Of a stretch of DNA of 64,000 nt, positions 5,677 through 46,115 are shown one piece after another. A program made the position numbers and the translations under genes. The DNA is taken from assembly GCF_022376445.1 (NCBI RefSeq), contig NW_025955035.1:1-64000 (forward strand). Direction: 5' to 3'. Source of the DNA: Fomitopsis serialis. Taxonomy: Eukaryota; Basidiomycota; Agaricomycetes; Polyporales; Fomitopsidaceae. The number at the start of each line of letters is the position of its first letter. Position 1 is the stretch's first letter. The notes beneath the pieces were generated by a model that was not told the origin of the DNA, ran no database searches, and saw only the letters and a list, made by a program, of their open reading frames with translations.

Positions 5677-8279
5677 ATGGCCTATATCTGTAACGGTTGC
5701 ATGAAGAGCTTCTCGCGCCGTGGCACGCTCCTCCAACACTTCCAGCTGAGTGAAAAGGGAGCGTGTCAAGCTGCCCGTCACCAACATGAGGAATCTATGC
5801 GCCATCTGACCCGCCGTGACAACCATCGGCGTGCTCAGGCGGCGCGCTCACGGTCGAGGAGTGCCTCCCGTGCTAGCGAGGGTGGGCAGCCTATGGACGA
5901 TACAGACACTGGCAATGGAGACGAAGGTCACGTCCTGTTTGACGGAGATTACTTTGGTGCGGCCGATGAATACGACGACAACGATCTACCCTTCGATGAC
6001 TCGCCGACGTGCCAACCTGCCGATGACCTCGATGAAGACGACCTCGATGATTCTGCCAGAGACGAAGCAGTTGGTGACGACATCCCTCCACCAGATGATC
6101 TCGCGAGCAGAGATATGCAAGGCGGACACGATCGCATGGACATTGATCCTGCTTCCTCCACGGCCGACGCCCACGACGGCGTACAGGACAACGCCCCTGG
6201 CGGTCTTCAAAGGGATGCGCATATCCAGCTTGGCCAATTGCCGGTCCACATCGTCCCATTTGGTGGCGACGCCGGTGCGCCCATCGATCCTGAAGGTGCA
6301 AAATCGACTGGTGCAGGATACAAGGCGTATGCGCATCAAGTCGATCCCAATTCGAAGAACTTTTATGCGCCGTTCACGTCGCGCGTCGATTGGGAGATTG
6401 CACGCTGGGCTAAACTGCGTGGCCTCGGCTCAACGGCATTCTCAGACTTGCTCGCGATTGACGAGGTGAGTTGATACCTGCCGCGAACATCTGCCGACAC
6501 TTAATGTGTATCTTGGTTGTGTAGGTCTGCAGTCGTCTAGGGCTCTCGTTCAAGAATGCGGATGAACTAAACAAGATCATCGACGACAAGCTTCCCAACC
6601 ACAGACCAGTATTCCGCCGCTTTGAAGCCTGCGTGGGCGGCGAAACATTCGCAATGTTTTGCCGTGATATACTGGAGTGCGCTCGTGCGCTATATGGTGA
6701 TACGGAACATGCGAGATACCTCTGCGTTTCTCCTGAGCGCCACTACGCGGATGCGGACCAGACAGTGCGTCTCTATCATGACCTTCATACCGGGCAATGG
6801 TGGTGGGCGACGCAGGTATGTCTTCGAGCTCTTAATTGAATCTTGTTCTCATCCCATATGAGCAGAAGCAGCTCGAGAGCGAGAATCCCGGAGCCACTGT
6901 TGTCCCGATTATCCTCTCATCGGACAAGACACAGTTGACGATGTTCCGGAACAAAACCGCGTACCCTGTCTACCTCACGATCGGGAACCTTCCGAAGGAG
7001 ATTCGCCGCAAGCCGTCGCACCGCGGCCAGATTCTCGTTGCGTATCTTCCGACCAGTCGGCTCGAGCACATCAAAAACAAGGCCGCTCGCCGACGGACCC
7101 TGGCCAATCTATTCCATGTATGCATGTCGACAGTCACGGAACCCTTGCGCAATGCTGGCGTGACAGGTGTTCATATGACAAGCGGAGATGGGGTCGTACG
7201 GCGGTGCCACCCGATACTAGTCATCTACGTCGGAGACTACCCAGAGCAGGTTCTCGTGACGGGGACCTATACGGGCGACTGCCCAATATGCAAATGCCCT
7301 CATGATGATCTTGGTACCTACCCATGCCCCCACGATTATCGTGACGTCAATGAAGCCCTCGACGCACTCGGCCTCGTAGGGACCGCCGACTACAACAGCG
7401 CCTGCGAGCAAATCGGCATTAAGCCGATTCAACACCCATTCTGGGAGAAGCTACCGTACGTCGACATATACCGCTCCATCACACCCAACATACTCCATCA
7501 ACTACATCAAGGGGTCATCAAACACCTCCTTGTGTGGCTAACGGATATCATCGGCGAGGATGAGATCGACGCACGCGTGAAGCGGCTCCCTCCTAATCAC
7601 AGCATCCACATATTCTACAAAGGGATATCCGGCCTCTCACGTGTGACGGGAACCGAGCACAAGCAAATGGCTCGCTTTATTCTGGGCTTACTCATCGATG
7701 TTGACCTGCCGGGCGGAGAGTCTGCGGATTTGATTGCAGCGACGAAGTCACTCCTCGACTTCCTGTACATGTCTCAATACTCGGTTCATTCGAGCGCGAC
7801 ACTCGACGCTCTCGAACGCAGGTTGTCCGAGTTCCACGAGAAGAAGGACGTCTTCGTCAGACTTGGTACGCGCGGCCACTTTCTCATACCGAAACTTCAC
7901 ATGATGCTTCACTATGTTCGCGCGATTAAACTCTACGGCACAACGGATAATTACAATACCGAAGCCACGGAGCGGCTTCACATCGATTTCGCAAAAGAGG
8001 CTTACCGATCGACAAACAAGAAAGACGAGTTCCCACAAATGACGAAGTGGCTCGAGCGCCGCGAGAAGGTGTTGCAGCATGCGAAGTATGTCGAGTGGCG
8101 AGTACTACATGCTCAGTACCTGGCCGATCCGCGTCACTCAGAACCTGCCGCCGCAGATGAAGAGACACGATGGCGACCGCCTGATTTAGCGTGTCCGTTG
8201 CTTCATCATATGACAAAGTGGCCGACTCGCAACGCTGTACCTCTCACGGAGCTTCTATCTCCTGATGGGTATGGTGCGA
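5677..8279 (+). pseudogene. Plavaka-type transposase, 5' part (interrupted by an LTR insertion)
   Basis: Exons 5677-6465, 6525-6815 and 6866-8279 are in frame (introns 59 and 50 nt). The product starts with a C2H2-like finger (MAYICNGCMKSF, then C and H about 20-30 residues on), then has an acidic low-complexity region. The transposase proper follows, with blocks diagnostic of Plavaka elements (a CACTA-related group found in fungi): YVGDYPEQ, CPICKCP, FWEKLPYVDIYRSITP, LHQLHQGV-KHL, LSRVTGTEHKQ and LYGTTDNYNTEATERLH. The catalytic Asp/Glu set lies among these. The gene breaks off at GYGA (8,279) where a TG...CA element begins, and resumes at 9,841. Without the insertion it would have been an ordinary full-length transposase, so it is now probably inactive. 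Confidence 0.88.
8276..8279. repeat. target-site duplication GCGA (left copy)
   Basis: GCGA borders the LTR-like insertion on the left, and the same four bases are at 9,837-9,840 on the right. Removing the insertion and one copy restores the Plavaka frame (tat ggt gcg aca ttc ctc). Duplications of 4-6 bp are expected for LTR retroelements. Confidence 0.8.
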
Positions 8280-8370
8280 TGTGGGGTGGGCCCACATGGG
8301 AGCAGCGGCACGACCTCAATACACCGCACGTACAAGTCAAGACGGGAAGGGGCAGCAACCGGCATAGGGC

Positions 8371-8424
8371 AACATTGATTGTCGAACAAGCGAACGCAAC
8401 ATCGATTGTCGCACAAGCGAACGC
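8371..8424. repeat. 27-bp direct duplication
   Basis: Two adjacent 27-bp units, 8371-8397 and 8398-8424, differ at two positions. They lie near the left end of the LTR-like insertion. Confidence 0.8.
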
Positions 8425-8479
8425 ACACGGCGGAAGAGCTAATCGAGCACCCAACCAAATACATGCGGAAGGAGGAAGG

Positions 8480-9271
8480 CTACTGTACATGAACGGCAGG
8501 TCCCTCCGCCACCTCATCCTCGACCTCTCCCTCCTCCATGGCCTCGACGTCGGGAGGGCGTGCAAACTGCAGGCGACGCGGTATTCCGGAGTAGCCGTCA
8601 GGCACGTACACTCCCTCCGACAAGCGAGCGTGCAAGTCCCGGACGCCGGCCTCAACGGAACCCAGGCCTCGGGCAAAACGGACGGCTTCAGAACGAGCGT
8701 CGCGGTTGGCGGTCCGGCACTCGTCGAGGAGGCCTTGGAAGCGGGTGAGCAGACCATCGAGGCTGTCGGAGGAGGCGCGGAAGGAAGATAATTGCATGGG
8801 CCGTTCCATGTACCGAATCGGAAGAAGCGGGCGACCAACCTCGGCATCGGATTGCTCAGCGGCGACGCGGTTTGGAGCCCAGGCGATCAACGGGTAGGGC
8901 TCGCCGACGTAGCTATGCTGGGACGGGAGAGTCAGGAAGACCTGGTCGAGGTACTCGATAAGATCCTGGACGTCCGAGTACCGGCGGACGAGCGGAAGGG
9001 ATGCGTCGCCGTGGGCAACCGCGCGAGACCGAGAATCGAAGAGCATCCGCTGTGCGGAACGAAGGCAGGTTGGCGAGACGAGGAGGACGAGGCGGAAGAA
9101 GGCACGTACGATTAGCCATCGGGCGCCATGGGCCCAAGCGAGCCACTCAAGGTCGCTATCGGGGTTCAGACGGGGCTCTACCACACGCTCGTCACGAATG
9201 AGGTCGACGAGGCGGTAGAAACGGGTGGTGTAGACGATGGTCGAGGGGTTCGGTGGGATGTCGGCGGGCAT
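8480..9271 (-). CDS. antisense gene 2, copy 2, inside the solo LTR
   Basis: Model: complement of 8480-9049 and 9110-9271, 243 aa. The 60-nt intron (GTACGT...CACAG) falls at exactly the same codon as in copy 1, after R-W-L-I and before R-M-L-F-D-SRSRA. The intron is a multiple of three and has no stop, so a reading through it would also be open. The protein is mostly helical, with an aromatic motif EWLAWAHG near residue 45 and an acidic C-terminus. It lacks the Gly-rich tail of copy 1. No homology to a known enzyme is apparent. Its position within an LTR, on the strand opposite to the presumed element, is retained between the two copies, as is the intron. This argues that it is a real and conserved gene. 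Confidence 0.7.
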   Translation of the reverse strand: MPADIPPNPSTIVYTTRFYRLVDLIRDERVVEPRLNPDSDLEWLAWAHGARWLIVRAFFRLVLLVSPTCLRSAQRMLFDSRSRAVAHGDASLPLVRRYSDVQDLIEYLDQVFLTLPSQHSYVGEPYPLIAWAPNRVAAEQSDAEVGRPLLPIRYMERPMQLSSFRASSDSLDGLLTRFQGLLDECRTANRDARSEAVRFARGLGSVEAGVRDLHARLSEGVYVPDGYSGIPRRLQFARPPDVEAMEEGEVEDEVAEGPAVHVQ

Positions 9272-30627: not shown

Positions 30628-30694
30628 TCAAGCACTGTCCAGCAAGTCCACAATGACGGGCTGAAACGGTGCCTCCAATAGTTGGGGGGAACCC
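30628..30694 (-). pseudogene. displaced 3' end of the metallophosphoesterase gene
   Basis: Read on the minus strand, this short piece continues the metallophosphoesterase frame: SPQLLEAPFQPVIVDLLDSA then TGA (30,628-30,630). FQPVIVDLLD is the kind of C-terminus seen in fungal members of that family. It is separated from the rest of the gene (43,855-45,190) by the KDZ transposon. Joining across one copy of GGG keeps the frame exactly. Confidence 0.75.
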
Positions 30695-30697
30695 AAA

Positions 30698-31010
30698 TAC
30701 TATTCAATGAGTATTTACTCATTTTGTTATACTATTCTGACGAGAAAAAAATGACTGTATTACACCCATATAAACCACGAATACTCGCGATCACATAAGT
30801 ACTCGCTGACAAGGCTCGCTCGCTGAGTACTCACGGGCAGGGGTTGCTCCCTGAGTACTCGGCGGCGAGGTTCACTCCCTGAGTACTCGCGGATGTTGGT
30901 TGCTCTCCAAGTACTCACGGACTGGCATGTTCACTCTGAGTACTCACGGACGATGGTTGCTCCCCGAGTACTCGCCGACGACATTTATCCCCCCAAGTAC
31001 TCGCATTAAT
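30698..31010 (+). repeat. left terminal inverted repeat with GAGTACTC array
   Basis: The outer 25 bp match the right end. Inside there are about eight GAGTACTC or one-off variants spaced roughly 25-35 bp apart, separated by phrases such as GGGTTGCTCCC and GGTTCACTCCC that recur inverted at the other end. Confidence 0.8.
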
Positions 31011-31041
31011 CATCTCTGCAAATGAAATATTTCTTCGTGCA

Positions 31042-34000
31042 CTACTCGTACATGCTCTCCTCATCGTCAACTTCACCTGCATTCAGCTCTGCCAGCTCTA
31101 CAGCAGCAGTATCGCCATCCTCACCATCAATCATACTAACCTCTAGTGGTGCGACCATGTCGTCAAAAATGATCTGCAACGACAGCGGGAAACACTTCTG
31201 CGCATCCGTCAGCAGACGTGAGTACATTGACGACTGCCTGCAGCAGATGTCAGCCCTCGTGCCTTTGATATGCATGGCATCACTACATACCTTGCCGCGA
31301 AAGCAGCCGCTCCTTGCTCGTCAAGATTTGTGCACACAACTTCGGCACGCTCCTCCCACTTCTTCATGCAGTAGTGGAAGAATCGCTGCACGCGCCTCAT
31401 CTCTTCCTTCACAATCTCCACCTCCTCATTCCATCTCGTTGTGCGAGCACTTGCCCGGAACCATTCAAGTCGACAGGCTTCAGCCACTGTCAGTGCACTA
31501 CCCACTTGATCATTCGGCTCACTCACCTTCCAGCGCCCACTTGTCGAGTGCAGTGTCATGGTACGTACCATCCCGCCAGATCCAAGACACTGACTCCTTT
31601 TGCCTACCGACGTTCTCTTTCGCGACGACTGGAGGCCGGCACTGTTCCACGAGGAGGGGTCTCAACGTATTCGGTCTGTCTCTCGTTGCCAGCCGATCCA
31701 CCTTGAGTCGCGCTCGCTCGTATTCCTTTCGCAATGCCTCTATCTTCTCGCGCTCGCCCGTCTTCAGCTTACTATATCTGGTTTGCGCCTGCTGCCCGAA
31801 CGACCCCGCATTCTGTCCGCGGTAATATGCTTCGAAGTGAAGCTTCTGCCGGATCTTCTTTAGAGTATCGTTGGCGTGAGCCACGCGCAGCTCCTGCTCA
31901 GCAACAACGAACCGCTCAAGAGATGCATGCCTGCGTATCTCTTGCGAATACGCAGAGGGGACGAGTACCGTGGCTTGTTCAGCAGCGACTGAGTCTATTG
32001 ACGGCCACTCGGCCTGAACATCCGCCTCAACCATGAGGAGACTCGGGCCCATGACCCTCTGTTGCCACAGAAGCCAGTCCACAAGCCGCCTCTCGAGTTT
32101 CGATCGTTCTTTGGCGATGCTGTTGTACTTGTCGGACGACGGCTCCTTTTCGTACGCGACAACTTTGGCTTTGAAGGCTTCCCTGTCGGCCAGTCATATG
32201 ACGTGTCAATTGTGAATGAATGTACTAACTGTTCCTGTTCCAGCTCAAAGCCAGCCACCAGCATGTCCCCCAGACCTCCTCTCACCGTCTCCTCGATGCC
32301 AGTCGTATCTAGCGCTGATGCTTTGCGCTTCGTACCGGCATTCGGCATCGGCTTCTGGCGCGCCGATGTCTCTTCTCGCTTCAACCTAGCCAAGATGTCC
32401 TGGATCGTCGGAACTACTAATGTTCAGCACGAAGGTCTGTGAAGATATCACCAAGCACTATATACCTTCATCAACTGCAGGTTGGTACGGGTTCTTCACC
32501 TTGGTTCCGTCGAAATTGGGGTCCGTCATTTGAGCAATGTACGCGGCTTCGTCCCTGCGCCACTCGTCTAATGGGCGCCGATTCGTCGTCAAGGTCTTCT
32601 CCAAGCCATCCAGCTGAGCCCGATTCTTGCCATAGTATTTGTCTGCGAGTTTCAACTTCCCCTGTAGAGATCGCCCTGTTTCGCATCAGGCAACAGTCGC
32701 TCGCCCTGTTAAGCAGTCACTCACCGATCTTGAACATCTTTTGTGCGTTGAAATCGGAGTTGTGTGCGTCGAGGACGTCTTGCCTGTGCCCGGGTCCCAT
32801 CTCGCGCACCGATCGCCCGATGGCATTCTGGGCAGCCCATCTCCGTTCAACGGCCTCGCCATCGGTGTTGCCTACCCCAGGCATATAGTAAAACGAAAAC
32901 AGGTACTTGCAGATGCCTGTGTGCGAGGGCATGTGGAACTTCGGGACGCAGCGGCGGATCACAGGCCACAGCTCCTTCGCGAGTGTTACACCTGGCACCG
33001 ACGGTAAGGTGGAAGCGATCTGCTTGATGCGGTGCCACCAATTTATGCCGTATTTGCAATTGACGTCGTAAGAGCTTATCCACAGCGAAAGCGACGTGAA
33101 CCATTGAAGGCCACATAATGTCGCGTAATCGACGTTGGCATAGCGTTCGCCGATGTGTAAGTCGACAGTTCCGCAGGGGAGGACATATCCATGGCGCGTG
33201 CAAGACAGGCTGACCTGACCGGTTTTGATCTTGCCCTTGTAACGATCGGAAAGCGCATTGAAGTTGCTGCAGTTTGCCGTCTCGTCTTGCGCGTCCTCGT
33301 AGACCTTCATCTTCTCGAGGTACTCCTGGTACTTCTCACTGTCGACGTAGTAAGCTCCACCGTTCATCAACGGGAAATCCAGTGGATCCATCTTCTTATC
33401 GTGTTGGTGCAGGGTGAAGTTGCCATCTTTCCCGTAATGCAGCGCGTCCTTGTACCGATCCTGCTGTGGTCGGTCCTTCCAATGCGGGTCCATGTTGATA
33501 TCAGGTTGAGGACAAGCTGGGCAGCGCAGGGCGAGACTACCGGGATCGGGTTTCCTCTTCACTTCGGCCGCGAACCTCTTCAATGTCTCCAGGTAGGTGT
33601 ACTGCCGGTGCGACATGAGGAACTCCCGATACCTGTCCTATCAACTACATGAGTCTAGGCACATACAAGGCCGCATGACCAGTCGACGTACCTTCACATC
33701 GTCGAAGAACGCGTTGGAGGTTAGCCTTCGCAAAGTGCCGTAGAAATCGTGGGCTGTTGTTTTGGCTTGGAACGTGAGCTGAGTGAAGAATCCAAAGGTG
33801 TGGATGGTGAACACCGTCTGAGGGCGGGAGAACGATGCGGGCCACAGCCCGGCCCTCCAGAGTTGGATCGGGCGTTCCAGCGGGGCGTCGCAGCCGTTGT
33901 GGCAGTCGCAATAATGGACGTTCATCGTCTGGATCCCAGTGGTGTGCACCACCGTGAGTTGCGTTGGCTGATTGCTGACGGCGCGAGGACATGGGCGGCC

Positions 34001-34722
34001 ATGGTGACCAACCGAGAAGACTAGTCCAGCGTCGCTGAGATACTCGCGCTGGAAGTACTTGCCGTTCCACCATTCAATTCGATGAAGGGGGTTCCGTTGG
34101 TGTGTCACCACAATGCACCGCTTACACAGTAGTGGACCGTTGAAACACTCGGTACACCGGTAAGTGGCGGCGCCGTCGCGGCAGTCGTAACACGGTTTGC
34201 CGAGGTTGGGGTCAATCTCCCGCCTTCGGAACACGTTGAGAAGCTTTTGAGCCCATTGGTCGAGGAATGTGGTCATCACGACATGCAAGGGCTTCGAGAA
34301 TGATTAGATAGTTATGGTGGCATTTACATGGTGCGACGTACCTCGCCATGCCCTTTCTTAGGCGGGGCGTCCTGTCCAACCGCCTCTCCCTCCGTGAATT
34401 GATCCACAGACGCAGGATTAGTTGCACTGGTCGCCTGTGAGCCAACTGCCTCTGGAGCGGCGTCGAGGTGGGTGGATGTATGTGTGGCAGTGCCCCAGGT
34501 ATTGCTACTCGGACTCGCCTCCTCAAGCAATCCACCCATCGATGGCAAGGGAGCAGCAGGGGGTGTGGGTCGGGCGCGCTTCTCTTTGCGCCGCCCAGGC
34601 GAGAGATACTCTATGACTTGTTCGCCGTTCGCATCGAACGTGACGGTGGGTGGTCCGTCGGGAATGACGATCGGCTGAGGCAAAAAGTCCTCCTCGACTC
34701 GCTTCGGCTTGCGTCTGCCCAT
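31042..34722 (-). CDS. KDZ transposase with CxC2-like cysteine cluster
   Basis: Eight exons (complement): 31042-31237, 31291-31477, 31527-32182, 32230-32416, 32466-32675, 32725-33637, 33692-34291, 34342-34722. The total is 3,330 nt, 1109 aa, intact. The start MGRRK is chosen over an ATG 27 bp upstream for its basic N-terminus. Residues ~161-186 hold C-x2-C, C-x2-C and C-x2-C pairs (KPCYDC, CTEC, CKRC) in the arrangement of the CxC2 domain that precedes KDZ transposase cores. RNase-H-fold acidic residues are likely D398 (KDGNF), D518 (SYDVNCKYG) and E588 (NTDGEAVERRWA). The C-terminal third is coiled coil with an acidic end. It mobilises the surrounding element, and the intact frame suggests recent activity. 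Confidence 0.92.
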
Positions 34723-36498
34723 CGCGAAAGTGACAGATCCGAGTGTCACAGGTGGAGGTGAAGGCGGGCTACAACCCTAACGGATTCGGGAGGCGCGGCG
34801 CCACTCACGCGCGACGCGTAGATGAACAAGCAGTTGGCACATGTGGCCGTGTCCTCGAGCGCGTGTTTGAGCCCTTGCGCCGCTAACGTCATCCTTGTTT
34901 GGTATCCTAGCAAAGTAGTATGGGTAATCATTACTCTACATCTACGACAACGATCGGAACAGTCTGCGACTCCTTGGCGTCATCCAGGAATGTTGGGGTT
35001 CAAAGTGGCGATGAGCGTCGGAATGGATGCTGGTTGCTAGTCGCTGGAAGCCATAGCGGGCATGAATACAGGCGAGAGTGAGCAAACTGCGAGGACTTAC
35101 TGCAGTGGCGTGTATCCGTGCAACCCCGGTATAAAGCTATACCGTCCGCGGTTCTGCGAGGTCGTCCACTTGCATCGTTAAATGATGAGGACGAACGTGC
35201 GCGCCATCGCCCAGGTCGTCTCTTGATCGTGCCCTGGTTAGAGTCCGTAGGCGTCCGAGCAACGCCAGCCAGGCCCAAATTTGATGACTGTGGGCTCGCA
35301 GATCAACCTGGGACTCCGAGAACAGTCAGACAGGGTTTGGGGACGGTAAGATACAACTGAGAGAGGCTCTGAAAATTGGAAGTGACGACGGCGCGTAGAG
35401 AACAGCACACATCGCCCCCGCAGTCCGCGGATACTTCACCCGGGCCTCTCCCCAACGCGCACATCAACGCGGGACTGCAGTTAGACGAATGCGGGCGCAT
35501 CCTGAGACGTGCCGCCAGGGTCTACTTCGCACGAACACCGGGACGAGCGTGTAACAGGGATTGGAAAGCCGTCCAAATGCAACTGACCTTCGGATGGTAT
35601 GTGCAGGCTACAGACAAGCCTTTGCTTCCCAGTCTCCTTGATCCCCTGCACCGCATCCCTCTCCCTCTACATCGGCCTGCCCCAGTCGTGCCTTCACGGA
35701 CTCCAGACCGGACTGATGCGCACCGCGGTTGCGGCCGTCATATACACACGCGCGCGTCGCCGAGTTCCGAAGGCGACCAGTGGCTTGTCTGAGGCTTGAC
35801 AATCGGTGGGCGAGCCTGAGCGGCGGGCGAGCATATCCGAGGGTACGCGACACAGTTTGGGGAAAGCAGGAGCGAAGTCGGACGCTTGAGGGTCGCCAGG
35901 AGGGTCACTCGACTGCTCAATCGTGAACAGGAGGTTCCCGGACCTGGACATCAACGCATGGCCGAAACCAACACGGACGTCCAGGCCGTTGAGAGGGAGG
36001 CGTGGAGGGTACTTGGAGAAGGGTGGAGGCGAATGGCGGAGAGGGTGAGTAGCAACTGGGAGGATGAGATGGGTCGGAGATGGGCGCGCGTGGTTGACGT
36101 TGAGCGCCCAAACTGCTGGGTATGGTAAGTCCCTCGCAGGCGAGCGGTCTGTCCTCGGCGCTCTCAAGTGGGAGCGTGTCGCCTTCCATCCTCTAGCCAT
36201 CTAATAGCCTGTCCGACTGCTCTCCGCTCACCACACGGTTCTGCGATCCAGGGTAGATTTCGGTCTTCCTGCGCGAACCTGCTGCGGCGCAGTATATCTG
36301 CTGCCGAGGCGCCAGCAACTAACGTCAAGACCGTGAGGTTGTGTTCAGTCGTCCTGGCCTGTCAAGCGGCTGCTTTGCTTAATCTGGCTCTCGGTGCTCT
36401 TTCGCTTCGTGGCTAATCGTCGGTTTCTACTTGTCTATCGCTACGCCTGTCGACCTCGGTCTACGCTGTGTCATCAAACGTGCCCACAGATTCCGTCC
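34723..36498. other. divergent promoter region of the KDZ element; possible small exons
   Basis: This is the space between the transposase start and accessory gene A. Two plus-strand frames look somewhat protein-like and end at good splice donors: 35,376 to about 35,597 (donor GTATGT) and 35,958-36,124 (MAETNTDVQAVEREAW..., donor GTAAGT). They might be 5' exons of accessory gene A or a separate small gene. I could not join them with confidence. A minus-strand frame at 35,694-36,200 overlaps both. Confidence 0.35.
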
Positions 36499-38879
36499 TT
36501 ACAACGCTGTGCCTCGTCGGAGTAAGTTCTTCGTCAAAGTGTTGGCCGTCCGCGTCCATTAATTGATTTATAGTAGTCTCACTGTCACGTCGCCCGTGTG
36601 GTTCTCAAGTACTGCTCAGCCCCTGATATCGCGTACGGACCCACATCGCCGCATCGTCGTCTCGGTGTTAACTCGTGCACCCGGGCGTAGCCCATGGCTG
36701 ATGCTAATCTACATAGGGAGGTGCAGACGACCTCCTTCACATTGACTGCCACCCTTCGTCTGGTAAGCAGCCTCAGTCTGACTCTGCATTCGCTCACTTG
36801 ACGCGTGAACAGAATGGCGACACCCGATTTGTCCCTTCGACGGGAGATGTGCAGCGGATGCTGACGACCATTGCAATATCATCACGACGCCATTCCTTCA
36901 TTGGGTGCCGGAATTCCCGAGGATCGCAGGCCGCGAAGTCGTCACCTATGAAGACGGCTTGTGGGTCCTCAGGAATACACGCGTTGGCCCCAGCTCTTCA
37001 ACGAGAAGGCCTTTCATCACGCGTGCATCCCCAAGGCCGGTTCTCGGTACGCGCCCAGTGCCCAGGTCTACGAGGGCTTTGGGTACCGCCCTTGGCTAGA
37101 ATCAAAGTCGTGTGGGGTCCCGGGTTTGGATTTCTAAAGCCCGAGCTTCTAGATGAGCTTTTCAGGATCGCCTGCGACGTACTACGACGTTACGATGTCG
37201 CCGCCGGATCTGCCAGTACGAACGTCGCCAGCGTCGAGCACACTGCTCCCGATCTCACCCTCGGACGCATGCTGGGGTTGCTGCTGCGAAATGCAGTTGA
37301 CCGACTGCGTCAGGTGCCCACTACGGAGCGACACGCTCTCGTGACCGGCCGCTTGGCCCATCGCATCATTCTCGAACTCTCCGGACTTACAGTGTACTAC
37401 ATTGTCGTCGTCGGGCGCATGCACGACCTGCGGTGCTGGTCGCGTGAGCCCCTCGGCGTGCTCGGGCCTTCTTACGCAACAGCGCGACGGCTCAGCTCTT
37501 TTTCGTCTCGGCATCCCCTTCTGGTTCATTCAGCCCTGGAGAGAGGGTCTCTCAATCCGAGAGGTCGTGTCATTTCGCTCCTGGGCCCGTGAGCTGAACG
37601 ACCAGCCCGCTTCTCCGCGCATCCCGAAGAGCTGGTACGATCCGGACGGTACACATCAAGATCCCGCTCGGTGGACTCACGCATCCCTCGTCTATGTTTG
37701 CAACACTCTGTGCTCGTCGTCGTTGCCCCAACTGCAGATGATTGTTCGACCAGAGGCGGCCGAGCGAGAAGCGAAACGCGCCAAACGTGACGATGACACT
37801 CCGCTCTTCCCACCAGCCCAATCCTGCCTGCCATCTGCTCCCATCCCGAAGCACAACCCGAAGAAGCGCGGGAAACGCTCTCGCGGAACGCGTGCGGGGC
37901 CGAAAGCCGTCGTCTCGTCCCATCCTGCCACCCACTTTAAACCACCGCCGAGCGACGTCGCCGTCATCCCACCAAATTGGCGCGCTGCCCTAGTCGCCGC
38001 TTCACCTCTGACGTTTCCTCCCCTCGTGGCTGCTCAGTACTACTTCCCCCTCCCTACCTCATCCTCGAAGCCGACCAGCACAAGCCACGTTACATTCACA
38101 ACTTCGTGCGGATTCGTGACTTTCTAAGTCACCGGTTGGTCGACGCGCACGTTTCGGGTGCGCCCTTGCGGATCTCAGAGTGGCGACATGTCCTCTACGG
38201 CGATTATCCTGTGGTAGAGCCGCGAGCGACGCCGCCCGCCCGTGCCCCTGAAGGCTCCAAGGAGAGCACCACTGACTCTGCGCCACGTAATGGCCTTCAG
38301 ATCCTGCGTGCAGAGAGACGGGCAGCTGTCGGTGCCCTGTGTGGCAAAATCGGTGGCTTGTTGCCATATGATGAGGCCGCCGTCGTCCAGTATCGTGGCA
38401 TGGCAGTCGACATGGTAGCGGCAAGTCTGAAGCGGGATGTCTTGCGGTGGATCACCTGGGAGTTGTACGAGGTCAATTGGCGCTGCGAATTGCGCGCACT
38501 CGACCGATGTCTCGTTGACCATAGCCAGGACGCGTTCTTGAAGTGGGAGCGCGAGCAACTCATCGCGGACGTGTGGCGTGGCCCGACGATACAATCCGGC
38601 TTCTCAGCAGTCGTAGTTGCCGATTCATTCCCCTGCTGGACACCCGCCGGCGAAGCTCACTGGCGAGAGCGGCGCACCAACCTGCGCGCGTTCGTGTCCC
38701 TCATGAGTGTGTGGCCCGACTTCCCTCTTTCGCTCCGAGGAACCATGACGGACATCGCCAATTGCGAGAACACCTACGAGTTCTCGCAAACCGAGGCCGC
38801 TGCGATCCGGTTCTATGTCACGACCTTCACTGCTCGTTTCCACCGTCTTCCCTGCCCGCCCGTGATTCGAGTTTTCTAG
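36499..38879 (+). pseudogene. KDZ accessory gene A, unknown family, frameshifted
   Basis: Readable exons join in frame at 36,554-36,663 (TSPVWFSSTAQP...), 36,716-36,762 (after ACATAG) and from 36,813 on. They encode CPFDGRC, TTPFLHWVPEFPRIAGREVV and TYEDGLWVLRNTR, then LFNEKAFHHAC, VVWGPGFGFLKPELLDELF, LGIPFWFIQPWREGLSIREV, a basic PKKRGKRSRGTR stretch (possible nuclear signal), QYYFPLP, HNFVRIRDFLSHRLVDAHVS and ISEWRHVLYGDYP, with Trp-rich C-terminal helices to TAG 38,877. The family is widespread in Agaricomycetes as hypothetical proteins and its function is unknown. One-base losses near 36,981-36,990, 37,101-37,110, 37,461-37,470 and 38,045-38,058 break the frame. The 5' end is unresolved. 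Confidence 0.55.
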
Positions 38880-38973
38880 CATGTAATTCTAGCTGTATGT
38901 GTACATAGATAAACTAGGCATTGAGCTCCGCAACGAACCTGTCCCAATGAAACACGAGCCCATGGAACCTGTC

Positions 38974-39041
38974 GCTAAGTGGCTTTGACTTTGTCCCAAA
39001 GCGGGACGAGGCAACGCTTGATGTGGCTAAGTGGCTTTGAC
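38974..39041. repeat. 16-bp direct repeat upstream of accessory gene B
   Basis: GCTAAGTGGCTTTGAC occurs at 38,974-38,989 and 39,026-39,041, about 155-220 bp before the gene B start. GCATAAAGG at 39,124 is a possible TATA-like element. The repeats could be regulatory sites. Confidence 0.5.
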
Positions 39042-39193
39042 ATTTCACGGCTCGATGGTTTGCCCTAACGAGCCTTTTGTTCAGCGATCGCACAACGTTT
39101 CACTGGTGCCCCTGACCCGCGGCTGCATAAAGGGGGGCAGCAGTTGTACCTCGCTTCGACCCTCTCTCTACTCGGCGCCCCGACCTTCTAACC

Positions 39194-41132
39194 ATGGACG
39201 CTCCTCTCTGCCGTGCATGCATCGTGGACCCGAAACGCAAGATTGACCAACACGCATGGTTGGTTAACACCGTGCGGGCTGCCTGGGAACGACCTGGTAA
39301 GCCGGAGAGTTACAAAGCGATGGCGGGCCGCATCGCGAAAGAGTTCGACGCTTTTCACGCTGCGAGCATATACGGGCTGAAAAAGGATGGCAAAGTCGTA
39401 CGGTTCGAGACGGACGCCGAGCGCGATGGGAGATGCGCAGGGAGAGTTGGCGTACGTGCCACAAGCCGCTTGAATATGCTCGGTATTAACACCATACTCA
39501 CCAGAAAATCTTCAACTGGATCGAGAACAACCGCGCCTACTTCGAGAATTTGAAGAAGGGCACGCCGAAGCTCCTTGAGCTGCCAACGGAATCTGAGCCG
39601 GTCGCCGCACCGCGAGCAAAGAGCATCGTGGATCTTTACAAGCGTGACCGCCCCGAGATCGGTCAGATGGCACGACAAGCGGCGGAGAAGGAAGGCTTGA
39701 CCTCGGGAGACCACTGGCTAGGCATAGTCAACAAGGCATACACAGCTGCCTTGCTCGAATTGGCGACCACAGACCCGGAAAAGCACCAGGAGTACGTGGA
39801 GGAGTCGAAGCGGTCGAAGGAACAGGCGAGCATGGATCGCGCACTGGCCTTGCAACCGACCGCAGGCCCCAGCTCGGGGGGCGCGCCACCTGGGAACAAG
39901 GACAACAAAGCCGAGTACGTTGGCACCGTCGTTGTTCTGCCCTCGTCTATCTAACATATGACAGCTCCTTGAAGCGCGTCCTCTTTACAGCCAAGCGATC
40001 GGTGGATACCTGGGCGAACGAGATTGATGCCGACTTCTTCCTGTACGTCGGTGTCATCGAGGAGGGTCAGTGTGTCAAGTATCTGTATGTTCATCTGCTT
40101 TTGAACGACGATCGCGGTGTGCTCACTATGTACTTAGCATCGGCAACAATGCGTTGTCCCCGGATAGTCTCGTCGCGCAGATGAAGACTAATTCGGTGCT
40201 CGACGAGCTGGACGACCTTGTCCTCGAGCGCAAGAGGCAGCGCGATGCGCCTGGGCCGCAGGCTGTCGCAGCTGAAGAGACCCACGACGAGGGTGTGGCA
40301 CCTGAAGTGGCCGGCGAAGCCGTCGCCACACACGGACAGGACGCAGAGCTGCCAGCACCTGCCGAGGCCCCTTCTCGCTCTGGCACCTCGAGCGGTGTTC
40401 CTGAGGAACCCCCGCTTTTCAATGCGCTTGAGAGCACCCCCGGTTCGGTCTCAGTGGCGTCCGCGAAGGACTCTGCGTTCATTGACGCACCACCCGGCTC
40501 TGCGATCTCTGCACCACGCCGCTTTGACCGCTCTGTAGTAGCAGACGGAACCACAGAAGCCGCCATTCCACCAGCGGTGAGCGACGTGAGAGCTGGCCCT
40601 GTTGCCAGCGGCAGCGAGGCTATCGAGGCCTCTTCCGCGAGAGGCGGAGACTCAGACTGCATCGCACTACCAGCGGTGAGCGGCGGGTTGGACGCCTCCG
40701 CTGCCAACATCAGCGGGACTCCCGAGGGGTCTGCGGCGACAGGCGGAGACCCAGACGACGTGTCGCTCGCAGCCGTGAGCAACGGGTCAGATGTGCCCCC
40801 CGCCAATGTTTACCAGGCTCCCGAGGTCCCGGCCGAAGACAACAATTCTGGCCCTCGGTCGAGTGAGGACGAACACGCACCTCCGACAGCTCGCAAGAAG
40901 TCCAAGACGGCTCAGAAGAAGGCCTCTGCGAAACCTCGTGAAGCCTCTAAGAAAGCCAGCAAGAGGAAGGCACGCGATGGCGATGATCCTCCTGACAGCG
41001 AGGCGCCACCAGCGACCTCACTTCGTTCGAAGCGGACGAGGTGAGTACTATGCGCGGTCTCGTCTGCTGCAACTGACTTGGCCCGCCAGAACCGTAGCGA
41101 ACTATGCCACGCTGAACTCCAAAGGAAAGTAA
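39194..41132 (+). CDS. KDZ accessory gene B, basic-tailed protein of unknown function
   Basis: Exons 39194-39451, 39505-39914, 39965-40078, 40138-41040 and 41090-41132 give 575 aa, all in frame (introns 49-59 nt). The start (AACCATGG) is followed by PLCRACIV with two Cys. A folded N-terminal region (to about residue 255) includes KQ-, W- and Y-rich helices: HAWLVNTVRAAWERP, IFNWIENNRAYFENLKK, WLGIVNKAYTAALLELA and DTWANEIDADFFLYVGV. Residues ~330-500 are Ala/Ser/Gly/Pro-rich with an imperfect ~29-residue repeat around PAVSxG. A strongly basic segment (ARKKSKTAQKKASAKP..KKASKRKARDG) near the end looks like a nuclear localisation or DNA-binding tail. The family was not recognised. An intact frame inside a transposon implies recent use. 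Confidence 0.75.
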
Positions 41133-41462
41133 AGGTAGATAGTATGCAATCTGAGGGGAGGGAGCTTGTATGATAGTCTCGCATGTTCATGTTGGTGTCG
41201 TGTCTAGGTAGTACCATTAGCTACACAGCTTGTGATTAATGGAATTCGTCGCGTGATAGTGACACGGTGCGGAGGACCATAGGTAACACTCGAGCTTGCC
41301 ATTATGATGTGCCGGCCCTGCATGACCGAGCGGCTGCGCGGGGCACTTGTCGTGTGGCCCGGCTTTGTTTCTGTCCCTCACTTTGGCCTATCCCTCTTTC
41401 GTACAATGTGCCACCGACAGTTTTGCTGGCCACTCGGACCCAGAACAATAGCGCAAATGCTG

Positions 41463-41468
41463 TATAAA
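41463..41468 (+). promoter_or_regulatory. TATA box of accessory gene C
   Basis: TATAAA lies 54 bp before the ATG at 41,522. It is well placed for a fungal core promoter. Confidence 0.5.
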
Positions 41469-41521
41469 GGTGAGCATTTCCCTGACACACGAGTCCCCGT
41501 CTTCGTCCTGACTCCCGCCTC

Positions 41522-43311
41522 ATGTCATCTCCCCCGCCCAATGGCCCTGTCGGGCGCAGGGTAGGGAGGATGAACACTCTCTTCTCACCTCACACACCCT
41601 CGAAGACCCAAGACACGAACGACCCCTTTCTCGCGCACTTCAAGGAGTTCGTTCGCGCACTGTCCCTCGAAGAAGACACTGCGGGTTGTCAACATGACCC
41701 AAGGAAGCAACTTCAATACTTAACCGATGATGACAACGTTGCACGGATTTACACAAGGGTGAGTAGTGTGTAACGATCTCGCGGACAGAGCCCTAATCTG
41801 GGGCACAGTGTACACGGTGTGGACCCCCTAACAAGGCGAAATTTCGCTATCTCAGTGGCCGTGTGGGCCCCCGTGAGCGCGACCTCATCCGTCGCATGAG
41901 CCGCATCACCACCGACCTTCGCAAGGCGGAGAAAGCTTCAGAGGCTCTGCAGAACAGGCAGAGTCGAGCTTTGGCCCGGGGTAAGCCTGACTCAAAGATC
42001 GACCAGGATTTGGAGCGTGCAGCAGACGTCGTACGTGCACTTCAAGCCGAGAGGACAGGCTTAGACGAGGAAAGTCGCGTGTTCCGTCAACAACGGGAGG
42101 AAAAATCACTCGAGGGCCCTCCGAAACCGGATGGACAAGTGCGCAGGCTGCCGCACCACACTCTCTCCCCATCCGCTGCGGCCACTAGGCAACCCACACG
42201 CGACACCGGTGTCAACAATCTCTCTCATGCTCCGCCACTGCCTTCTGCCTCTCACCAGTTACATCCACCCCGGGCCCCTGCGCCGACTCGGACGCACGAT
42301 GTCGGACAGACGGAGGTCTTGGGCGATGCTGACAGCAATTCGGATGGTTCAGAATCCTACTGGAAGGCCACGGACGACCGATTGCCTTCGCTTCTATCCA
42401 GCATGTCGCCCGACAACCGTCCGATCCCCATCCCACCATCTTCGCCTGTCAGTCTGGTGTCTTCGTCACCATCTCGGACTGTCGCCCGTCTTGGTCGTCT
42501 CCCTCGCGCGATAGCTGCGCACAATGCACCTGTGGCGACGCAGACCTCGTCTTCGCCGACAACTTCTCAGAAGGTACGTCACAATGTTTCTCTTGGGCAT
42601 AGCACCATCTCATATTGATGTCGTCTCTTAGCCTCGTGGCATCAAACGCGGTCATACTCAGTCGGACGACTCGGACGTGATCGACCTCACCCTGGATTCT
42701 GACAGCGATGCGGACGAGCAACGCGCCTCGTCACATGTGGCCTCACGACGCCGTCTGGGGAGTCGACCGTCACCACCGCCACAGCCTGAGCGACAACATT
42801 CATTGCACAAAGCACCCCTTCCAAATGAATCGGATATCTTGTGGGTCTGGCAATACACGGAGGTATGTCACGGCTCGTCTTGCCAACAGTCTCCTAATAC
42901 TGACCATCTATTGCGTAGAATGGAGAGCTCCCTGAGGGCGTTGTGTTCGACAAAACAGACCGGGACTCCTTCACATCGATCTGCACTAACTGGGGCCTCA
43001 AACTTACTGATCCTATTGCAGTATGGATGAGCCCGGAACATGCCTGGAGATTCATGCACGTGGAGAATCTCGCCGACATTCCCTTCTGCATGCGCGAAGA
43101 CGATTTCATCATATGGGTGAAGTGGGGACTGCGGGATCTTCCCATGCTCGACGTCGTCGCGAGTAAGTCTCCGCGTTGTTTTGTGAAGAACTTCATTGAC
43201 GAGTCTGTAGATGATATGAAACTCGTTGCTCCCAAGTGGCCGGACGCCGAAAGCATATGGCAAGCCCGAACTGAGTCAATCGAAGAGTACGACAAACAGT
43301 GGCGCTCGTGA
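41522..43311 (+). CDS. KDZ accessory gene C, coiled-coil protein with SUMO-interaction-like motif
   Basis: Exons 41522-41758, 41809-42573, 42632-42862, 42919-43162 and 43211-43311 give 525 aa, all junctions in frame. The last intron (48 nt, GTAAGT) is a multiple of three and could be retained. Order of features: Pro/Ser-rich start; IYTRCTRCGPPNKAKF, with a C-x2-C across exon junction 1; coiled coil about residues 100-185; Ser/Pro-rich linker; VIDLTLDSDSDAD, a hydrophobic core flanked by acidic Ser/Asp residues as in SUMO-interaction motifs; and a compact Trp-rich C-terminal domain (ILWVWQYTE, WGLKLTDPIAVWMSPEHAW, WVKWGLRDLPML). Function is unknown. It is presumably nuclear and might link the element to host SUMO-dependent silencing or transposition. 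Confidence 0.78.
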
Positions 43312-43494
43312 AGAGCTCGCCACCGTGACTATCTGAGGAACATAGACAGCGCGATTGTTAGATATTGTGCAACTGTACATTTATGATCTGTATTCAGTAT
43401 CAATCCATTCCACCAGTTTCATATAGAAAAGTTTGTTCCCGAAGTTTGTTGATGCCGAATACTCAGGGCATGTATTAATTGTAAGTATATATAC
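43312..43494. other. 3' flank of accessory gene C
   Basis: Short AT-richer stretch between the gene C stop and the right inverted repeat. It probably contains the polyadenylation region. Confidence 0.4.
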
Positions 43495-43854
43495 AGTGAG
43501 TCATCTCATTGAGTACTCAGCACCACCCGGTTGCGAGTGAATACTCGGGTGGTGATGTGGATCTGCGAGTACTCAGACTGAACATGGTCCGTGAGTACTT
43601 GACGAGCAACCATCGTCCGCGAGTACTCAGGGAGTGAGCCTCGCTGGCGAGTACTCAGGGAGCAACCCCTGCCCGTGAGTACTCAGGGAGTGAGCCTCGT
43701 CGGTGAGTACTTATGTGATCGTGAGTATTTGTGGTGCCACTGACATTACAAGTACTCATTCTATGGATGCTGTTCACGAGTACTCATGCCATGCACTCAT
43801 CTATAAGCTCGTGAAGATAATACTCGTCGATGAGTAAATACTCGTTGAATAGTA
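43495..43854 (-). repeat. right terminal inverted repeat with GAGTACTC array
   Basis: Mirror of the left end: GAGTACTC palindromes separated by phrases such as AGGGAGTGAGCCTCG and AGGGAGCAACCCCTGCCCGTG. It ends in ...GAGTAAATACTCGTTGAATAGTA. Confidence 0.8.
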
Positions 43855-45190
43855 CCCGGCTTCCCTGCAACGGCTCGTGCCTCCCCGAAGTTGACCCGGC
43901 TCCCCGGGCGGTATGCCTTCGGGCCCATGGGCCAGTTCGCGGCGTTCACGAAGATGGTTTGCTCAGCCTTCTGGCCCGAGTCAGCGCCCTCCGCGCCCTC
44001 GGCATCGCCCTCGGGCTGTGGCTCTGGCTCGGCGTCGGCGGCGGGCCACTCGTGGACGAGCGCGCCGTGGTCCTCGTGGATGTGCCCGAAGACATGGAGG
44101 CGCGGCCGGATGGCGGGGAGGCGGGCGGCGAGCGCCTCGCACCCGACGTGCTCGTCCCCGACTGTCTTGTCCATGATGTCGTGGGGCGGTGTATGCGTCA
44201 ACCTGTGTGAAGGGAACTGGCTCGTCATCCACGGCATCGCGTCTGAATGCAAATGGGTCCTGACAGTATGTCCGTCTTGGGGACCGCGGCCATAAGCTCT
44301 GTCGGGGGCAGCGTGAGACGGGATCGCGGTGAGTTTCAACGACAGGGGCGTACTCTCGGCCTCCTCTCCGCGCTGGTAGTTGAACGCCCAGTTGTGGAAG
44401 TAGGGGACCACTGCGGGAGGCGCACGGGCGAGACAGGACCGGGGTCAGGATTCCGGGGAACTGGTACGACGATGTCGTGGACTGACCGGCGAGCCGTACA
44501 CGGTCCATTTCCGCCCGTCCGGCTTGGCGCGGAACTCATAAGACTCGTCTTCGAGGTATACGATGCCGGACTTGGTCGCCCTGCGGCCTTGTATGAGATC
44601 CTGGATCAGGCCGATGTTCTAGAGGGGGAAGGCGGTCGGCACGCTAGCGGTGCGAGGCGGTGGGGATCGCGCACCTGCTTGGACATGCCGTGCCAGCGGG
44701 TGTAGTTCTTGTCGTACCAGTCGTCGTGGTAGTCGAGCGGGAGGTCGTGGTTGCCTGCGATGATACTCAATACGGGCGCGAGCGCGACCCGGTGTTAGAA
44801 CGGCGTGCTCTGGCGACAGCGGAGTGGGGGTGGGCGCGGCGGGGACTCACATCTTCGTCCGATGCGGGAGGTCGCCTATCCACTCCATCGTCCGCTGGAA
44901 GTCGGCGTAGGTGCCCATGGCCGTCAAATCGCCGCTGTGCAGCAGGACGTCGCCGGGGGGACGTGGACCATGCGGGAGTGGGTGTCGCTGATGCAGACGA
45001 AGCGCGTCCATTCCGGGGAGGGCACCGGGGGCGGGCTGGTGCTCGCGTACTCGAGGTGTATGACCGCAGTCGGGGAGCGGAGGGAGACGGGGGGCCGCGC
45101 AGGGCCGTCCTGGGGCGAGTGGGCGGACATCAGGGCTGGGGGAGAACTGTAGAGCTGCTTTGCTCGGTCCCAGAGAGACGGTGGGGGCAT
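43855..45190 (-). pseudogene. calcineurin-like metallophosphoesterase, disrupted
   Basis: Exons (complement) 44851-45190, 44675-44765, 44487-44618, 44354-44410, 44265-44298 and 44202-43855, continuing at 30,694-30,628 beyond the KDZ element. All metal-ligand motifs are visible: FVCISDTHS, LLHSGDLT, IIAGNHDLPLDYH, THTPPHDIMD and VFGHIHEDHG, plus VNAANWPMGPKAYRP. The fold is a two-metal phosphoesterase of the ser/thr-phosphatase-like superfamily (UPF0046/MPPED type), and the substrate is unknown. Three lesions: one C missing in the run at 44,955-44,960, one C missing at 44,402-44,405 (exon 4 has 57 instead of 58 nt), and the 13-kb transposon 21 or so codons from the stop. With the transposon in place the frame would end with 18 residues encoded by its terminal repeat. 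Confidence 0.85.
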
Positions 45191-46115
45191 GGGCTGCGGG
45201 CTGCTGCAGAGGGTGACGCGGACTGCCCAAACGGTCGAGCGCGTTCAGCTGGACTGCTCGGCGAATGCCAGCGTCGATGGCTGGCGGGTTAGTGGGCGCA
45301 CTCGCGCAACGGGGGCCGTGCGCGGGCAGGGGCTGGAGCTCTGGAGAGGCGGCTTGCATCGAGCCTGGCCCGGGCTGTGGGCCAAGGAGAGGGAGACAGA
45401 CGCGACAGACGCACCAGCCCTCCCGCAGTCCCTCCCATGTCACGCGCGTCACTCTGTTGCTTCCGTGACACGACGCGTTACTGCGCCGACCGAGACCGTC
45501 ACCACCATCCGCGACACAGCAGACTCTGCGTGGTCTTTCTCTGACGCATTCTCTATTGCTTGGCGGGTGGAACGTCGGCGTTCCTAGGTTTATCTGTTGT
45601 GGTTCGCCCTCTTCCGAATTGCAAATCTGGTCCTGTGCGCCAGCCACTCCAACGCTACTGGTCGCCGGCTTCACTACGAGTCTCAGGCTGCGACCTCTGG
45701 GCCGGTCTTCGGCTGTCCGACGTTGGACACATTACATAGCGTAGTCTCCGTTGCAGACCATACAAGCCGACACGCGTCTTGTACATTCAATCGCGCTCAA
45801 TAGCAGGGAGTGCGTTAGTGTCGCCCTATCCCAACGCACTGAAACGGCCGCATCGGACAAGGCATACATGGCGGGAAGGGAGTTTTCAATGTCGGAACCT
45901 TGGTCGGAACACTGTGTGTTCATAGTGCGTGGCTAGGCTCGGCTCTTGTATCTCTGCTGGCCTCCGTGCTGACCTCTGCTATTGCTGCCTCCGGAACATG
46001 CCGCGATGCCGTTCGACGGGCCTCACTCGGGACTGTGGTCTCCCCAACTCTCGTTCAAAGCTATTCCATTCTTGAGGCACTACATTCCGGGTGCCTGCAA
46101 TCTAAGTTAGCTGGA
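45191..46115. other. divergent promoter region
   Basis: Lies between the starts of the metallophosphoesterase (minus) and serine racemase (plus) genes. No other gene was recognised. Short frames are present on both strands. Confidence 0.45.

Follow-up and report, generated by a model that had tools for sequence, protein, structure and literature searches.

The window analysed here, a stretch of 64,000 nucleotides of Fomitopsis serialis, carries a KDZ transposase gene next to three further genes, which we call A, B and C. For KDZ elements a transposase and, in some of them, a TET/JBP gene are known. A sequence-only reading of the window had described one transposon with three passenger genes that the element had picked up. 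The locus therefore raises the question whether these genes are cargo or belong to the transposon itself. Comparison with related loci indicates that the trio is very probably an old and integral helper module of the transposon and not chance cargo. The features of the element are listed in Table 1.

Table 1. Features of the KDZ element in the window (positions are those of the 64,000-nucleotide stretch).
Feature	Position	Strand	Remarks
Target-site duplication GTGCCTC, transposase side, 7 bp	30669..30675	.	copy comparison
Whole KDZ element, 13,201 bp	30676..43876	.	bounds from alignment with the C179 copy
Transposase-side terminus (CAATAGTTGGGGGG...), ~47-bp imperfect terminal inverted repeat	30676..30722	+	
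Left subterminal array, 13 AGTACTC matches, both strands	30798..31002	.	
KDZ transposase gene with CxC2 zinc cluster	31096..34722	-	~eight exons by C223 comparison
Gene A, interrupted frame (intact relatives: ~650-735 aa)	36694..38879	+	start from C179 model
Gene B, 577 aa	39194..41132	+	exons 39194-39451, 39505-39914, 39965-40084, 40138-41040, 41090-41132
Gene C, 525 aa, VIDLT-type motif resembling SUMO-interaction motifs	41570..43311	+	exons 41570-41758, 41809-42573, 42632-42862, 42919-43311
Right subterminal array, 15 AGTACTC matches, both strands	43511..43785	.	
Gene C-side terminus (...CAACGGCTC), terminal inverted repeat partner	43830..43876	-	
Target-site duplication GTGCCTC, gene C side, 7 bp	43877..43883	.	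copy comparison

The element is a defined, recently mobile, four-gene KDZ transposon. A query of the genome with the 13.2-kb unit, which the sequence-only reading had proposed as a check, revealed a full-length second copy with the same four genes and a flanking duplication on G000:C179, starting at position 41768 and 99.92% identical over 13.2 kb. The unit had been placed at 30695-43854; it proved real, with its true ends slightly further out according to the C179 comparison (Table 1). The two copies are separated by ten differences, one substitution and nine single-base length changes, eight of which fall in single-base runs. The flanks of the C179 copy differ from those in the window and bear their own 7-bp duplication, CTCGGGA, and the joined flanks of the window element match only themselves in the assembly, where an empty allele was thus not found; a haplotype duplicate in place of transposition was therefore rejected. 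Recent mobility, likewise part of the earlier description, was thus borne out. A third copy on C185 extends over only 4.65 kb before the contig ends. A 7-bp duplication was found at one further locus, C301, where GAAGACG and the same terminal letters surround a 20.5-kb unit in which the parts of gene C are split by nearly 8 kb. At C223 both conserved ends are present and the duplication is absent at these ends. The best explanation is an autonomous, recently active KDZ element with the transposase on one strand and A-B-C divergent on the other.

The long inverted repeats that had been reported to enclose the element were found as a 149-nt pair of 91% identity (30774-30922 / 43587-43735) and a 42-nt pair of 83% at the element ends. 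The pattern CAATAGTWGGGGGGA, which was built from the ends in the window and C223, has four matches in the genome (window, C179, C185, C223) and its reversed control none. The termini CAATAGT on the transposase side and GGCTC on the gene C side were found again in C223 and C301. The gene C-side end with differing flanks is also present in C490 and C444, and in C163 and C100. The ends of C46 and C675 were not found, nor was the transposase end of C490 within the 1.3 kb examined.

Inside the ends, the short motif AGTACTC is strongly enriched. It occurs 40 times in the window, counted on both strands with the palindrome GAGTACTC scored twice, versus 5.6 expected occurrences, and none of 100 shuffles reached 40. 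Two blocks adjoining the element ends hold 28 of the 40 matches. Elsewhere CAAGTAC is abundant at both C223 ends (13 and 6) and AAAGTAT is present eight times in the gene C-side end of C163, both being plain counts made without a shuffle control. The transposase-side end of C301 and the gene C-side end of C490 showed no strong repeat array. A candidate motif of C46 (CCGGCCGG) was not counted, the C46 ends not having been found. The subterminal arrays look like binding-site arrays that vary by family, and an element-encoded protein may bind them.

The surroundings of the element contain a gene of another transposon, a Plavaka transposase at 6836-8791 (PF18759, E 2.6e-89). The gene C-side end of the element lies inside a neighbouring open frame on the minus strand (43797-44444), which enters the element by about 26 codons. 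GHIH in this frame and GDLT in a second frame (44847-45731) recall, in our estimation, a metallophosphoesterase; neither frame has a Pfam family at E 0.001.

The transposase is matched by the Pfam families KDZ (PF18758, 4.7e-43) and CxC2 (PF18803, 2.5e-28). It had been described as an eight-exon gene, and comparison with the relative on C223, an eight-exon model of 1083 aa, agrees with about eight exons. Residues 1-1048 of this model are covered in the window by seven tblastn pieces, in which stops are confined to intron read-through and to the end of one piece. A purpose-written gene finder based on simple dynamic programming ended its model of the window transposase after four exons. The KDZ core, the CxC-type cysteine cluster and the mobile unit with its target-site duplication are those of the KDZ superfamily. 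With regard to the Kyakuja group, the 7-bp duplication (window, C179, C301) and the first letters fit, but the last letters and the inverted repeats do not: the element begins with CA and ends with CTC instead of showing CA..TG termini, and it has the two inverted-repeat pairs where Kyakuja has none. We therefore filed the element as KDZ and, tentatively, as Kyakuja-like.

The divergent orientation of the three accessory genes, already noticed in the earlier reading, is evident from Table 1. Five exons each and 575 and 525 codons had been proposed for two of them. Gene B has these five exons and codes for 577 aa, identical to the NCBI model P0001. For gene C the length of 525 holds, but the gene-finder model has four exons; the NCBI model P0003, also of 525 aa, uses another start and another C-terminal splicing. 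On C223 (390.9-395.0 kb) NCBI merges B and C into a protein of 1025 aa (P0002), which may reflect an erroneous model or a true fusion. Just 5' of gene B the window contains a 52-bp tandem duplication (38940-39043, 71% alike).

Gene A of the window family cannot be called intact, owing either to sequencing error or to decay. The window copy lacks eight single bases of the C179 copy, seven of them in one-base runs, and the C179 copy lacks one base of the window. All eight losses in the window are located within a 2.7-kb stretch (34826-37498); this clustering and the one-base runs suggest locally poor sequence rather than mutation. Near 38.05 kb gene A changes frame in both copies. The earlier reading had described full frames for the other two genes, not for this one. 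The frame change is confined to one short part of the protein (38000-38130 in the window, about 396.0-396.2 kb in C223) and is absent from C301 and C46. A programmed frameshift was considered and set aside, since the frame change in the window adjoins a run of C and sequencing error is possible.

None of the products of A, B and C has a Pfam match above the curated cut-off. A search of the PDB sequences with alignments of the three proteins, up to an E-value of 1, gave no match for A and B and one for C (E 0.26), which was taken as chance. The earlier statement that none of the three resembles a nameable protein is therefore in line with the absence of confident Pfam or PDB relatives. They had also been described as no dioxygenases, and the Pfam matches up to E=10 for A (P0005), B (P0001) and the merged B and C (P0002) are weak and of other kinds, with no TET/JBP or other dioxygenase family among them; a hidden dioxygenase was thus rejected. 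Other candidates were dropped as well. A DNA-alkylation-repair hint for B (E 0.081) and a PIN-TPR-GreABC hint in one B relative (E 2.3e-4, under the curated cut-off) were each confined to a single member, and an HMG-box-like stretch in B had no library match. Since confident relatives are absent, we infer the functions of all three genes.

The arrangement of the four genes is conserved. The order transposase<>A>B>C and its orientation were found at nine loci, i.e., C723 (window), C179, C223, C444, C46, C102, C301, C490 and C675, with only partial matches for the transposase of C444 and gene C of C102. By identity (26-75% at the protein level) these loci represent about six families. C556 has all genes except C, and C163 has A, B and C with no transposase match within 9 kb. 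A lies upstream of B at 12 of 14 B loci, and B upstream of C at 10 of 11 C loci. In the group of the window, 10 of 15 A loci show a divergent transposase within 9 kb, at a by-chance rate of about 0.55% per locus; this count of A loci omits weak matches (~22-30% identity or short) on C50, C623 (164 kb), C76 (34 kb), C612, C721, C81, C762 and C643. The other five are C77, C623 and C76, each with A alone, C163, and C54, where a remnant of A precedes B. All five transposases examined for it have the trio beside them (window family, C223, C301, C46, C675).

Single genes of the trio also occur. Relatives of A with an open frame and 58-60% identity are located at C77:18801, C623:135480 and C76:74362 with no detectable transposase, B or C; they are either non-autonomous elements or domesticated genes. 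Relatives of B with no detectable A or transposase nearby are present at C113:8072 and C110:57447. Among the 81 KDZ/CxC2 loci, a divergent A lies within 9 kb of 18 and is missing at the other 63; the 81 loci were merged by hand from 108 KDZ and 66 CxC2 matches, so that neighbouring fragments are possibly counted twice. The module is thus not needed by KDZ transposases generally. The sequence-only reading had named transposases that never have the trio, and the same genes as ordinary single-copy host genes outside any inverted repeats, as observations that would speak against it. The 63 loci with no divergent A nearby and the three A and two B genes on their own correspond to these observations in part. 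Outside F. serialis, relatives of gene A were found in Rhodofomes roseus (4 of 15 matches) and in an ENA record (one match), and no homologs of B and C among 8000 candidates.

A second and older group contains ten further A loci of about 35% identity, eight of which lie divergent to a KDZ or CxC2 match; the two others, C741 and C307, are partial A matches. One locus of this group was taken in full (C223:1366-1378 kb). It consists of a transposase, an A gene of 708 aa, an extra open frame and a gene of 563 aa, termed B'. Its transposase is 32% identical to that of the window (E 1.6e-86). Each of the eight loci of the group with a transposase has B' downstream of A and on its strand, at a distance of 3.2-4.7 kb in six cases, 9.3 kb at C2 and 16.5 kb at C179; B' matches at C307, C308 and C115 were left out, as they are not tied to an A with a transposase. 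B and B' were rejected as homologs (hhalign probability 0.3%). Since transposase and A are paired in both groups, the pair, judged from these comparisons, predates their split, and the downstream partners differ or have diverged beyond recognition.

The identities between families differ from gene to gene. They amount to 63-75% for the transposase (five families) and to 48-72% for A, 29-66% for B and 26-54% for C (six families). Identities of A and B are correlated (Pearson 0.95), as are those of transposase and A (0.73; 10 pairs each) and of transposase and B (0.78; 6 pairs), all on few and non-independent points. For gene C, identities between families do not track those of the transposase, A and B (Pearson -0.26 to 0.01). 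The A tree groups the window with C223 (100/100), whereas the C tree groups it with C675 and C444 (99/98), and the swapped groupings are rejected both ways (p 0.0003 and 0.00009); these trees have long branches, seven rows and partial C rows (C301, C444), and the groups were named after the identities were known. The contradiction between the two trees and the uncorrelated identities suggest that gene C was probably exchanged between element families.

The alignments cover parts of the loci. A4 contains 12 of 15 gene A matches (P0015, P0017 and P0019, broken or partial, were omitted). A1 contains 6 of 14 B loci, with the C223 and C556 rows restricted to the N-terminal portion, the tail of C444 trimmed and a stretch judged to be a retained intron removed from the C113 row, which was also used in this form for the Pfam search. 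A2 contains 5 of 11 C loci, with a stretch taken to be intronic removed from the C163 row, the C46 row beginning at a later ATG and the N-terminus missing from the row of C444.

Selection on the extra genes, which had been proposed from their intact splice phases, was supported by dN/dS values below 1 in one pair for each gene. The ratio is 0.20 for A (95% 0.14-0.25; window family versus C223) and, for C301 versus C163, 0.23 (0.14-0.34) in the first 260 residues of B, 0.61 (0.44-0.82) in the B tail and 0.32 (0.14-0.57) in the end domain of C. None of 200 codon resamples reached 1 in any of these four regions. For a transposase pair the ratio is 0.06, with synonymous change saturated and only stretches of at least 35% local identity used, a filter that does not apply to the four values above. 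Gene B combines a conserved portion with a tail of low complexity that evolves faster, and the best conserved part of the gene C product is its C-terminal ~90 residues.

The linkers of six gene C sequences contain ten VIDLT-like motifs, most of them beside acidic stretches. Composition-matched shuffles contain 0.14 on average and none of 2000 reached ten, for a pattern that was picked after the sequences had been inspected. The strict VIDLT form is absent from gene C of the C163 type, which shows acid-flanked V/I clusters instead. We take these motifs to resemble SUMO-interaction motifs, e.g., that of PIAS proteins.

The conserved gene order, the older pairing of A with the transposase and the purifying selection in the pairs tested make the trio look like an integral module. 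The claim that the genes are passengers, i.e., genes of the host that a KDZ element took up and carries along, perhaps to the benefit of the fungus, does not fit well with these results and appears improbable to us. It can draw on the many KDZ/CxC2 loci lacking a divergent A, on the A and B genes found with no detectable transposase, which make a host origin possible, and on the acquisition of genes such as TET/JBP dioxygenases by KDZ elements, as described in the available sections of PMC12730594. Against it stand the gene order and orientation shared by nine loci from about six families, the A-transposase pairing in a far older group, and the transposase, A and B identities, which move together between families; recent capture in particular is unlikely given the conserved gene order. 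If the trio is part of the element, what it does can be outlined at about even confidence from the joint inheritance of the genes, the selection on them, the motif arrays and the discordant history of C. A and B may assist the transposase as co-factors in the nucleus and C may be an adaptor linked to SUMO, the trio forming part of the transposition machinery. The transposase would excise the element and then insert it; cut-and-paste by a DDE-type transposase is established for such elements. A and B would be its old nuclear partners, which bind DNA ends, assist the assembly of the complex or guard against silencing, perhaps acting on the family-specific subterminal repeats (AGTACTC here). C would be a fast-evolving, exchangeable adaptor, the SUMO-interaction motifs of which bind SUMO-modified host chromatin or repair proteins. 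It could thereby aid expression or insertion of the element and link it to the SUMO/chromatin control of the host.

Two other roles for the trio were weighed. In the one, B or A would bind the subterminal arrays and free the element and its relatives from silencing marks, similar to VANC of the VANDAL elements, which binds arrayed short motifs in non-coding parts of its own elements (PMC5735166, in the sections available). The dense short-motif arrays at the non-coding ends, which differ among the window family, C223 and C163, and the division of B into a conserved part and a faster tail would suit such a role. However, the arrays sit at the ends, where binding of the transposase alone would explain them, and they are not evident at every one of the ends examined. 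We regard anti-silencing as unlikely. In the other, A and B would only be structural subunits of the transposition complex, stabilised by C, with no role in host control. This would agree with the way A and B track the divergence of the transposase and with the divergent layout around a shared intergenic region. A fixed subunit would need neither the discordance of C with A nor its many SUMO-interaction-like motifs, and we consider a purely structural role quite unlikely.

A description of A, B and C was not found in the literature searched, which includes the accessible portions of PMC12730594, PMC12810828, PMC5735166 and PMC12062965, with the founding KDZ paper (Iyer 2014) outside this set. 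If the reading as an integral module is true, the conserved three genes would be dedicated co-factors of a large fungal transposon group, and they would account for 'uncharacterized proteins' in at least two polypores, F. serialis and, for gene A, Rhodofomes roseus. Among known KDZ elements, Kyakuja shares with the element the KDZ transposase, the 7-bp target duplication, the 5' CA and an Agaricomycete host. Kyakuja-1_LB and Kyakuja-2_LB are described, in the text available, with 7-bp duplications, CA..TG ends and no inverted repeats, while Zisupton and a Dileera family have 8-bp duplications (Kojima, 2025; PMC12730594). In contrast to these two Kyakuja elements with their TG end and TET/JBP gene, the element ends with CTC, has ~47-bp imperfect terminal as well as subterminal repeats and carries A, B and C instead (PMC12730594, same sections). 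The KDZ1-KDZ3 elements of Cryptococcus are similar as KDZ elements of 9-11 kb whose movement was shown (PMC12810828). They differ by their CxC1 cluster, by terminal repeats of 139-241 bp and by duplications of 8 bp (KDZ1) or 4-8 bp (KDZ2, KDZ3) versus 7 bp here, and in the portions of that source available only the transposase is mentioned (PMC12810828).

The module offers a specific case in which to ask whether transposons of fungi encode factors for anti-silencing or SUMO recruitment. In En/Spm (CACTA), with TnpA and TnpD, a second element-encoded protein acts on subterminal repeats; this element has another transposase class and a shorter duplication than the KDZ element. VANDAL is a plant element of another superfamily, the Mutator type. 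By analogy, the KDZ elements of polypores could be modular machines in which an old core of transposase, A and B co-evolves with the family-specific subterminal arrays and is joined by a swappable SUMO-binding C that connects the element to the chromatin control of the host, a fungal counterpart of VANDAL anti-silencing made from unrelated proteins; we put this forward tentatively, as a doubtful extension. Like VANDAL with its VANC protein in Arabidopsis, the element is a multi-gene DNA transposon with an extra protein of conserved and variable parts and with short, family-specific motifs arrayed in non-coding regions (PMC5735166, available sections). The targets of VANC shift through the turnover of tandem repeats, and its binding and the resulting demethylation were demonstrated there, whereas the corresponding features of the KDZ element are known from its sequence (PMC5735166, available sections).
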